Part shown: piece by piece, positions 12,155-34,438 of the stretch
Position numbering within the stretch: position 1 is the first letter of the stretch
Layout of the letters: each line of letters opens with the position of its first letter
Source: a bacterium
Lineage (GTDB): Bacteria > Bacillota > Clostridia > Lachnospirales > Lachnospiraceae
Assembly (NCBI GenBank): GCA_029227655.1
Contig: JAQYAI010000043.1
Span: forward strand, 1-44,773
Reading direction: 5' to 3'
DNA: 44,773 bases
Program-made: the position numbers and the translations under genes
The notes under the pieces: model-generated
Databases searched by the model: none
Told to the model about the DNA's origin: nothing
The model's input: the letters and a program-made list of their open reading frames with translations, nothing else

Positions 12155-13036
12155 TTATTCCCCAATTACAGTGCTCACTGTTCTGCACCAGTATCCAAAT
12201 TCGTCATCCTCTTCTCTTTCCTCTGCCGGAAGTTCTATCTCACCCTCATCCGGCCGCATGAACTGGTCAAATCCGAAGGACCGGGCTACCTTCTGCTCAT
12301 TCGGATGAAAGACACCCGGAACTCCAAGCCAGCACGCGCCGTCTTTTTCAAAAGATACCAGATGATGATAGTTGCGATATCCATGTAAAAGGAAGTGATT
12401 ATTGGCCAGTTTCCACTCACACCGTGGAAGGCGAGCCAAATCTTCCCGTGTAATCTTATAGATCAAATCCTTTTGTTTCCTGTCAGATGGCACTTCCACG
12501 CGAACAGATTCCGCCACGTGCAGCGCTTCTTCCTGTGGTTCTTCCCGCATTTCCTCTTCCTCCGGTTCTACTGCCGGCTCTTCCTGCAGCTCCTCTTCCT
12601 CCGGTTCTTCTGCCACCTCTTCCTGTGGACCTTCTTCCATCGGTTCTTCCTTACGGATCATCTGCTCAATATTCAGTGGAATTTCCTCCCATTTGGCTGC
12701 ATACCAGTTCTTCCGGTCACCTTGTCCCTTTGTCAGAATCATTCCTCCCACCCTGTCAAAGGTTTCCCGGCCGCCTACATCACAAGCATCATATTCCAGC
12801 CGATAAGAAAAGACGGGCGATGTATTTTTTAATGTTCCCATGGAAATTCCTATACACTTATCTCCTTCCGGATAAAAAAGGAACAGTTCAAACATATCAT
12901 CTCCATTTACCGGAAACCCCTTGCCATAAATCTGAAGGACTGCTCTGTCTTCACTTTCTTCGCATTTTACAAAACCTACATTCTGGACACATTTTCCATT
13001 CTTGTAAGCATATAGATAACGTACAAATTTTTTCAT
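12155..13036 (-). CDS. Lachnospiraceae-type protein of unknown function with Glu/Pro-rich linker
   Basis: A 293-residue protein I cannot assign a function. The first 115 residues form one domain (FVRYLYAYKNGKCVQNVGFV). A strongly acidic linker (about 130-175, rich in EEPEEEE repeats) follows, then a C-terminal domain (about 190-270) with WKLANNHFLLHGYRNYHHL and a GVPGVFHPNEQ segment. There is no signal peptide or membrane helix. From memory it resembles a family seen in gut Lachnospiraceae (possibly DUF6128), but that label is not verified. It sits between dgt and tadA in the same direction. The acidic linker suggests flexible tethering of two domains. Confidence 0.7.
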   Translation of the reverse strand: MKKFVRYLYAYKNGKCVQNVGFVKCEESEDRAVLQIYGKGFPVNGDDMFELFLFYPEGDKCIGISMGTLKNTSPVFSYRLEYDACDVGGRETFDRVGGMILTKGQGDRKNWYAAKWEEIPLNIEQMIRKEEPMEEGPQEEVAEEPEEEELQEEPAVEPEEEEMREEPQEEALHVAESVRVEVPSDRKQKDLIYKITREDLARLPRCEWKLANNHFLLHGYRNYHHLVSFEKDGACWLGVPGVFHPNEQKVARSFGFDQFMRPDEGEIELPAEEREEDDEFGYWCRTVSTVIGE

Positions 13037-32274: not shown

Positions 32275-32304
32275 TTGACTTAATACCACTCTAGGGGTTA
32301 TTAT
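32275..32304 (+). promoter_or_regulatory. Likely rpoD promoter
   Basis: TTGACT and TATTAT are separated by 18 nt, about 90 nt before the rpoD start. A GGGGAGGAG ribosome binding site follows near 32378-32386. Confidence 0.6.
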
Positions 32305-32392
32305 GATATGTGCGAATAAAATCTGTTTTTATAATATATTGTCGTGGATGCACGCATATATTTACAAACGGCGCCATGGGGAGGAGATAAAC

Positions 32393-33517
32393 ATGGATGA
32401 TAAGATTTTAAAATTTAATCAGAAACTCAAAGACCTTTTAGCTTACGCTAAAAAGAAAAATAATATTTTAGAGCAGCAGGAAGTCATTTCCTTCTTTTCC
32501 GATGTTGAATTTGACGCTGATAAGACAGATAGTATTTACGAATTTCTTGAAAAGAGCGGTATTGAAATTGTTTATCCAGTCACAGAACAACCGGACAGTG
32601 ACCTTGATCTTGACCTTGACCTTGATGATGTGACACTGGACGACGACATCGATCTTGATAAAATAGATTTGTCTGTTCCGGAAGGCGTTGGCACTGACGA
32701 TCCTGTCAGAATGTATCTGAAGGAAATTGGTAAGGTACCTCTTCTTTCAGCTGCTGAAGAGCAGGAGCTTGCGGAACGAATTGCAAGCGGTGATGAGGAA
32801 GCAAAGAAGAAGCTTGCGGAAGCAAACCTTCGCCTTGTTGTAAGTATTGCCAAGAGATACAACGGACGTGGTCTTTTATTCCTTGACTTGATCAAGGAAG
32901 GAAATATCGGTCTTCTCAAAGCCGTAGACAAATTTGACTACAACAAAGGCTTTAAGTTCAGTACATATGCAACATGGTGGATCCGTCAGGCAATCACCAG
33001 AGCAATCGCAGACCAGTCAAGAACGATCCGTATTCCGGTTCATATGGTAGAGACCATCAACAAGCTGATTCGTGTACAGCGTAATCTTCTTCAGGAACTC
33101 GGCCGGGAACCACAGCCAGATGAAATTGCTGCAGCAATGGATCTTCCTGTAGAACGTGTACGTGAAATTCTCAAAGTAGCTCAGGAACCTGTTTCTTTAG
33201 AAACACCTATCGGCGAAGAAGATGACAGTCATCTGGGTGATTTCATTCAGGATGAGAATATGCCGGTACCTGCAGATGCAGCTGCATTTACACTCCTGAA
33301 AGAAGAATTGGCTTCTGTTCTTGATACACTTACCGAAAGAGAACGCAAGGTTCTGACTCTGCGTTTTGGGTTGGAAGATGGACATGCCAGAACACTGGAA
33401 GAAGTTGGTAAAGAGTTTGATGTTACTCGTGAACGTATCCGTCAGATCGAGGCAAAAGCGCTCAGAAAGCTCAGACATCCTAGTCGCAGCAAGCGCTTGA
33501 AAGATTTTATGAATTAA
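32393..33517 (+). CDS. rpoD: RNA polymerase primary sigma factor RpoD (SigA)
   Basis: A 374-residue vegetative sigma factor. It shows a region 1.1-like N-terminus, an acidic stretch of LD repeats (about 70-95), region 1.2 [16 protein letters not shown], region 2.4 [20 protein letters not shown], region 3 and region 4.2 with [20 protein letters not shown] 32393 is preceded by GGGGAGGAGATAAAC; the track's 32303 start extends into the promoter. Unusually, dnaG is not next to it (a DUF554 gene is upstream on the other strand). The length is typical for clostridia, and it recognises the TTGACA/TATAAT boxes seen throughout this window. Confidence 0.96.
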
Positions 33518-33530
33518 ATGAATGTGTAAG

Positions 33531-33563
33531 GGAGATGACACCAGACCGTGCATCTCCTTTTTT
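33531..33563 (+). terminator. Terminator after rpoD
   Basis: GGAGATG and CATCTCC form the stem around a 13-nt loop, followed by TTTTTTC on the plus strand. Confidence 0.85.
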
Positions 33564-33590
33564 CTGTTCTGACTGCCTACTCCAGAGGCT

Positions 33591-33974
33591 TTCTTGCCGG
33601 TTCGGCATATAAAACTCTTGTTTTGATGTATTTTGTATGCTCACTTCACTGCGCTTCTCGCTGGTTCAGCATATAAACCTCCTACTTTGATATGTTTTAT
33701 ATGCTCACTTCACTGTGCTTCTTGCCGGTTCGGCATATAAAGCTCCTATTTTGATGTGTTTTGTATGTCCACTTCACTACGCCGCTCGCTGACTCGGCAT
33801 ATAAAACTCCTACTTTGATATGTTTTATATGCTCACTTCATTGTTCTGTGCTGTGATTCAGCATATAATTTCTTTATTCCTTCATATTTTAGATGCCACA
33901 AATTCATTTCACATCGAATTTCCATCATATAAAACTTGAGTTTTTAAGTATTTTAGATACCAAATTAACAAAAA
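33591..33974. repeat. Six in-register copies of a 64-bp tandem hairpin repeat
   Basis: The core GGCATATAAAA/AGCATATAA recurs with ATG (minus strand) at 33608, 33672, 33736, 33800, 33864 and 33928, exactly 64 bp apart with no indel; copies 1-4 are closely alike, 5 and 6 are decayed. Each can form an arm pairing such as GCATATAAAA with TTTTATATGC and a smaller stem (TGCCG/CGGCA in copies 1 and 3, GCTG/CAGC in copies 2 and 5). The minus strand carries ATG and a short ORF in every copy; an AGGAG-type sequence stands before it in copies 2-4 and weaker or no match in the others. This is not CRISPR-like: there are no unique spacers. Confidence 0.85.
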
Positions 33975-34098
33975 CTTTTTTTCAAAAAATCAGTTCTGGC
34001 TATCTACTCCATTGTTCACTTCTCCGTTTATGGAGATATGAATCTTGACTTTCAGTCAAATAATCCAAATATTTTGCTCTTTGATATTTTAATAAGAC

Positions 34099-34127
34099 TT
34101 TACACCATTACAATATTTCCCTATAAT
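34099..34127 (+). promoter_or_regulatory. Promoter of the 59-codon ORF
   Basis: TTTACA and TATAAT are separated by exactly 17 nt, 36 nt before the start of the small ORF at 34163. Confidence 0.8.
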
Positions 34128-34162
34128 ATAGATAGAACTCTATATGGAAGGGGTGTGAAAGG

Positions 34163-34342
34163 ATGAATGAATACATGCCAACCGAAAAAGAAATGATAAA
34201 CAGCCTCATTGACAAATTCACTGATTTACAACGTATAAAAAAATCCCCTGATTTAGAAAAAGAAGTGGATTATCAGTTGAAAATCACAAAAGCAAAATTA
34301 GAATCTTTCGGCATTATTACAGAAGATTTAGAACTTCAATAA
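34163..34342 (+). CDS. 59-residue hypothetical protein
   Basis: This ORF is just below the track's length limit. It reads MNEYMPTEKEMINSLIDKFTD and continues with a charged, helix-rich segment ending GIITEDLELQ. A good promoter lies upstream, and GGGGTG (8 nt spacing) and AAAGG precede ATG. No membrane helix or signal peptide; it is probably a small helical cytoplasmic protein. I do not recognise the family. It stands between the 64-bp repeat array and the tRNA operon, in a likely recombination zone. Confidence 0.6.
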   Translation: MNEYMPTEKEMINSLIDKFTDLQRIKKSPDLEKEVDYQLKITKAKLESFGIITEDLELQ

Positions 34343-34397
34343 CACAACAATACAAATGTAAAAAACAGCTTTTATGGTAACCAATAATCGAACAATC

Positions 34398-34438
34398 AAG
34401 GTGTGAGGTCTTATTAAAATGTCAAAACCTTACACCTT
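34398..34438. other. Long 12-bp inverted repeat
   Basis: AAGGTGTGAGGT and ACCTTACACCTT pair with one G-T position around a 17-nt loop between the small ORF and the tRNA promoter. No T-run follows on either strand, so it may be a transcript end-forming or protein-binding site, not a clear terminator. Confidence 0.5.

Follow-up and report, generated by a model that had tools for sequence, protein, structure and literature searches.

What is a 64-bp unit that stands six times in tandem downstream of the sigma-70 gene rpoD: a set of short genes, an RNA, or a DNA site? The first-pass annotation of the window (the whole 44,773-nucleotide stretch of DNA analyzed) had counted six copies at a period of 64 with zero indels, and both tandem-repeat analysis and direct reading of the window confirmed this. 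The minus-strand ATGs, seen as CAT on the plus strand, were likewise found at 33608, 33672, 33736, 33800, 33864, and 33928, as was the AGGAG reported ahead of the ATG in copies 2 to 4. The features referred to below are as follows.

32303..33517, plus strand: sigma-70 gene rpoD, a neighbor given for context only
33531..33563, plus strand: likely intrinsic terminator of rpoD, GGAGATG-N13-CATCTCC-T6, read from the sequence (beyond the loop range of the hairpin scan)
33585..33968, plus strand: whole array, six 64-bp units, oriented by arm asymmetry
33604..33641, plus strand: core 1, 38 bp, with half-sites at 33604-33614 and 33631-33641 and a 16-bp interior with a T-run at the dyad
33668..33705, plus strand: core 2
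33732..33769, plus strand: core 3
33796..33833, plus strand: core 4, arms perfect
33860..33897, plus strand: core 5, decayed except for the arms; its right arm, TTTTAGATGC, matches the sister arrays
33924..33961, plus strand: core 6, decayed outside the arms

The array downstream of rpoD

Copies 1 to 4 are well preserved, with 72 to 89% mutual identity, and copies 5 and 6 are only 44 to 56% identical to them with their arms still in register. A covariance model scored the six copies at 58 to 80 bits (58 to 61 for copies 5 and 6), values that are not independent since these copies were the model's own training set. In a scan of the window, no other 64-mer matched the consensus as well as copy 6, while copy 5 alone would not stand out from the window 64-mers by consensus identity. 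Markov shuffles of the window array yielded zero units, and a chance origin of the array is excluded. The copies alternate in an ABAB pattern, the best TRF row having a period of 128, so the covariation annotated in the small stem (TGCCG/CGGCA versus GCTG/CAGC) does exist as a change but is largely a single A/B difference that was later duplicated. The likely rpoD terminator lies upstream of the array, which therefore is not merely 3′ UTR of rpoD.

The genome has two rpoD genes with 74% amino acid identity; the window copy is solitary, and the copy on contig C74 (L043) lies beside dnaG, the arrangement seen in relatives. This second rpoD raised the suspicion that the window contig was contamination of the MAG, which was rejected, the window proS being single-copy and 87 to 91% identical to that of congeners. 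Two other repeats were noted in the window. Positions 34092-34414 (plus strand) hold a 59-aa ORF (34163-34339), without a Pfam match, between the 16-bp inverted repeats AATAAGACTTTACACC and GGTGTAAAGTCTTATT; relatives of this segment have similar flanks at unrelated loci in other genera (L107, L108, L118, L121, L123, L127, L128, and L131), and it may be a MITE-like unit with a small ORF or else a pair of autoregulatory operators. A 39-bp tandem repeat of 2 to 2.5 copies at 12540-12649, with a period divisible by three, probably lies in a coding region.

Sister arrays in the same genome and in other genera

A BLAST search of the unit against its own genome and 145 relatives returned no further array, which first suggested a private minisatellite; this was overturned when the covariance model of the unit matched additional copies elsewhere in the genome, on contigs C114, C126, and C46. 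A second model, restricted to the 38-nt core and trained on the arrays of contigs C43, C114, C126, and C46, found two arrays on which it had not been trained, one on contig C9 (9226-9582) with steps of 63, 64, 64, 64, and 64 and one on contig C30 with steps of 64, 43, 64, and 64. Since this model spans just 38 nt, the 64-bp step cannot be imposed by it. At the scanning threshold used, the 82%-complete genome contains eight arrays with 43 units. The scanned arrays are all intergenic, their flanking genes are codirectional, convergent, or divergent, and their strand relative to the genes is mixed. The neighbors are unrelated: rpoD and a tRNA cluster, CorA and a cation efflux pump, PEP carboxykinase and an unknown protein, a short-chain dehydrogenase and an EamA transporter, PNPase and an MFS transporter, and spore-coat and sigma factor genes. 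The annotation's fallback, a dispersed repeat family with chance ORFs, is supported on both counts by the eight arrays and by ORFs that vary. Its refuting test, dispersal with freely varying ORF and stem positions, gave a split result, with free variation of the ORFs and no such freedom in the arm positions.

Searched against 397 genomes of the family, the core model found arrays in three other genera (genomes G362, G351, and G055), a lower bound because the filters were strict, and seven congeners (G001-G007) had no array. G362 carries ten arrays, nearly all with steps of 63 to 64 bp; G055 has one array at 54 and one at 64 bp; and G351 has one at 63 bp and others at 74, 84.5, 95, and 147. Scanning a genome collection for the two arms at any separation from 8 to 26 bp gave 25 loci, mostly singletons, among which two were arrays: one in Butyrivibrio hungatei NK4A153 (L060), with steps of 64, 64, and 64, where the interior is 17 and the linker is shortened to match, and one in an uncultured Spirochaetaceae MAG (L058), with steps of 74, 105, 74, 90, 74, and 105 and no 64-bp step. 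In total, six genomes hold 30 arrays with 128 units, a small sample in which several genomes are MAGs or incomplete and units within one array are related rather than independent; E-values came from a short calibration. An exact-arm search of 299 family genomes returned the own genome and five single matches, and a control search of 214 kb of rpoD loci in other genomes turned up a single core, with no two cores inside 200 bp of each other. There was no match in phage and plasmid collections, and viral contigs of IMG/VR had single cores only and zero arrays. Among these contigs, a near-identical single core-like palindrome, AGCATATAAAAGCTGAAAAAGCGTACGTTTTATATGCA, is common to the phage contigs L277, L279, and L280, and its reverse complement occurs in L276, L281, and L286.

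Some genes near the arrays are related to one another. Two homologous proteins, L172:2341-3141 and L260:1-570 (both minus strand; about 45% identical along 160 aa), have their starts directly next to an array, the former in this genome and the latter in the Spirochaetaceae MAG, which may be coincidence. Their weak tblastn matches are parts of AAA-ATPase/RecD-like helicase proteins, and the motifs SEVIIAD, YPDFT, and WEH suggest a putative PD-(D/E)XK nuclease. Two LysR-type genes that are 73% identical (L169:1787-2707 and L271:2577-3524, both minus strand) also lie near arrays, adjacent to one in G362 and near, not adjacent, in this genome.

Anatomy of the unit

The unit takes the form of a split palindrome, GCAKATAAA-N(18)-TTTAKATGC, the dyad of which usually carries an A/T run. 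In the full consensus, RGCAKATAAAW-N(16)-WTTTAKATGCY, two inverted 11-bp half-sites enclose an interior of about 16 bp, and 26 bp, counted from these half-sites, separate one core from the next. Column information ranges from 1.1 to 2.0 bits within the arm cores and for the most part stays under 0.6 outside them. Over the 128 units, the interior measures 16 bp in 101, 15 in 17, 17 in 9, and 14 in 1. An A3/T3 run occupies the dyad in 32 of the 43 units of this genome, 32/37 in G362, 13/14 in G351, and 9/10 in G055, and 0 of 500 loop shuffles reached the observed value in each of the four genomes; in the spirochaete the run is weak, 24 of 500 shuffles attaining the observed value, and Butyrivibrio has none. 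Added to the A and T runs of the two arms, the dyad run gives a series of three A/T tracts spaced by about 10 bp, and such a spacing is the usual signature of bent DNA (PMC3940949).

The step is kept where the sequence is not

The step is 63 to 65 bp in most Lachnospiraceae arrays, even where the DNA that separates the arms is no longer similar at all; a few use other steps, from 43 to 147 bp, and 10 of the 69 adjacent pairs in genomes G000, G362, and G479 deviate by 1 to 2 bp. Between neighbors exactly 64 bp apart, the arms are 84% alike and the rest 55%, and in Butyrivibrio the rest is 30% alike, which is chance level, with the step intact. Since the exact step is kept and the arms are so much better conserved than the rest, we read the arrays as double-stranded DNA. 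The earlier guess of selection on the period agrees with these data, the 64-bp step, like the interior length of about 16 bp, having persisted where the rest has diverged, and for the same reason the suggestion of a protein-binding element holds up as a sequence-based prediction.

A length of 64 bp is about six helical turns. The spacings of 43, 54, 64, 74, 84.5, 95, 105, 115.5, 147, and 178 bp fall near whole turns, with a best period of 10.4 bp and a permutation p of 0.008, a value that includes the part of the data on which the phasing was first noticed. Distances first seen later gave R 0.36 and p 0.35, which did not confirm it alone, and 57, 70, and 90 bp are misfits. Helical phasing of the steps is suggestive only.

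Proposed role as measured protein-binding arrays

The arrays are dispersed and of fixed geometry, their arms are conserved, they recur beyond this genus, a spirochaete MAG included, and they contain no conserved ORF. At close to even odds (about 0.48), we favor the reading that they are dispersed intergenic arrays of double-stranded DNA that serve as measured sites for a putative dimeric, probably DNA-bending, protein. Each core would be the binding site of a dimer, the fixed step would let neighboring dimers touch or bend the DNA in register, and the outcome would be a multi-site nucleoprotein platform that might be architectural, insulating, or anchoring. A more specific proposal is tentative and rather doubtful: that this is an undescribed, patchily distributed Lachnospiraceae platform with a spirochaete relative, in which a putative dimeric bender sits on palindromes at whole turns, usually six, and organizes or insulates intergenic DNA. 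Open-access literature text and Rfam gave no description of the family. Some observations weigh against a measured array: a mobile element would equally account for the patchy occurrence, the 64-bp step is missing in the spirochaete, and Butyrivibrio has no dyad run.

Conserved arms and a conserved step, with turnover of everything in between, point to a protein that measures DNA, for which the core offers a short, specific bait sequence. Small tandem repeats dismissed as chance may be readable by their spacing, and, if the helical phasing is true, these arrays would be a natural test case for bacterial use of phased, bent DNA sites.

Alternative explanations

The main rival is a decayed REP-like mobile element, that is, a REP/REPIN- or MITE-like miniature element whose units were distributed in trans by a transposase and multiplied locally as tandem copies, the fixed length being that of the copied unit and the arrays being relics. 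The family is dispersed, intergenic, and palindromic, as such an element would be, and it is patchy among genera, absent in seven congeners and present in other genera and a spirochaete. Neighbors within an array often share interiors (window copies 1 to 4, L170, and L172), which points to local duplication, and tandem REP arrays are known (PMC3116915, PMC3733652). We nevertheless consider this origin unlikely. No GTAG/CGTC tag lies by the core, flanking columns reaching at most about 0.6 bit except for the outermost R/Y pair; no Y1-type transposase (RAYT) was present among the flanking proteins scanned; and near-identical copies at different loci of the genome were not found, so there is no sign of recent movement. 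Furthermore, neutral relics should lose the 64-bp step together with the interior sequence.

A tandem array of hairpins acting as RNA, as a 3′ stabilizer, a sponge, or a source of processed small RNAs, is improbable. Some arms are perfect inverted repeats, and the annotated G-U exchanges keep the larger arm of copies 1 to 4 paired on the plus strand, but pairing is 84.7% on the plus strand versus 83.3% on the minus strand and neither is above shuffles. Over this genome, arm pairing equals that of shuffled arms (79.3% versus 79.2%), and the commonest state of pair 6-33 is an A.G mismatch. Between lineages the arms change together, pairs 5-34 and 9-30 being altered on both sides; these symmetric changes, along with the absence of excess pairing inside the genome, are expected of dimer half-sites, and a hairpin likewise predicts the symmetric changes. 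Folding z-scores are modest, the likely terminator precedes the array, no array matches Rfam at the gathering level, and a hairpin leaves the exact 64-bp step unexplained.

A neutral minisatellite made by replication slippage is more improbable still: it would account for the ABAB structure and the graded decay of the edge copies, but the core and mostly the step are common to unrelated loci and other genera and the arms are conserved when the interiors are not, and the dispersed conserved core has already largely refuted it.

The minus-strand ORFs fare worst. Each ATG falls where it was annotated because it is the CAT of the conserved left arm GCATATAAA. The annotated length of about 7 to 8 codons fits four of the six copies but not the other two (33, 8, 8, 7, 8, and 31 codons in order), and over the 44 units of the genome lengths scatter from 4 to 74 codons. 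The start codon is found at this place in 24 of these units and missing in 20, and a Shine-Dalgarno-like (AGGAG-like) sequence occurs in 4 of the 44, every one in the window array; with neither conserved in the sister arrays, the idea of a translation-coupled or ribosome-binding element is not supported. The mini-ORFs are chance by-products of the arms, and although the Shine-Dalgarno-like sequence is well spaced before the ATG in copies 2 to 4, there is almost no prospect that their translation is the reason for the repeat, coding being already refuted as a family-wide feature.

Comparison with known systems

MIRU and intergenic VNTR repeats are tandem 50- to 100-bp units in intergenic DNA that may contain short ORFs; here, conservation is limited to the two short arms, the dyad run, and the step and does not extend to the ORFs. 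A 36- to 38-bp repeat with a spacer of about 26 to 28 bp at a fixed step resembles a CRISPR array. Unlike in CRISPR, however, the arms are 84% identical but the repeat interior is divergent, the linkers are related within arrays, and the arrays are many and small; no Cas proteins were present among the flanking genes scanned. The A/T runs about 10 bp apart inside each core recall clusters of phased A-tracts. The known case of intrinsically curved DNA is a diffuse genome-wide A-tract periodicity (PMC3940949), whereas here the runs belong to a discrete palindrome that is repeated.

The nearest named kinds are REP, BIME, and REPIN elements, which are short palindromic units in intergenic DNA, sometimes in tandem clusters. 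REPs and BIMEs are dispersed extragenic palindromes of 20 to 40 bp, to be compared with our 38-bp core in eight intergenic arrays, and a REPIN likewise has two inverted conserved ends around a less conserved interior of fixed length (PMC3116915). A REPIN consists of two inverted REPs around a spacer and forms a hairpin; the half-site here is not itself a REP, and the arms pair no better than shuffled ones in this genome. The defining GTAG/CGTC tag is missing, no RAYT lies next to the scanned arrays, and the copies are far fewer, mostly arrayed, and set at a 63- to 64-bp step with diverged interiors. GTAG REPs have been reported from Proteobacteria, Cyanobacteria, Chloroflexi, and the PVC group and CGTC REPs from five phyla including Spirochaetes, with Firmicutes in neither list (PMC3733652). 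Extragenic palindrome arrays have so far been described mainly outside Firmicutes.
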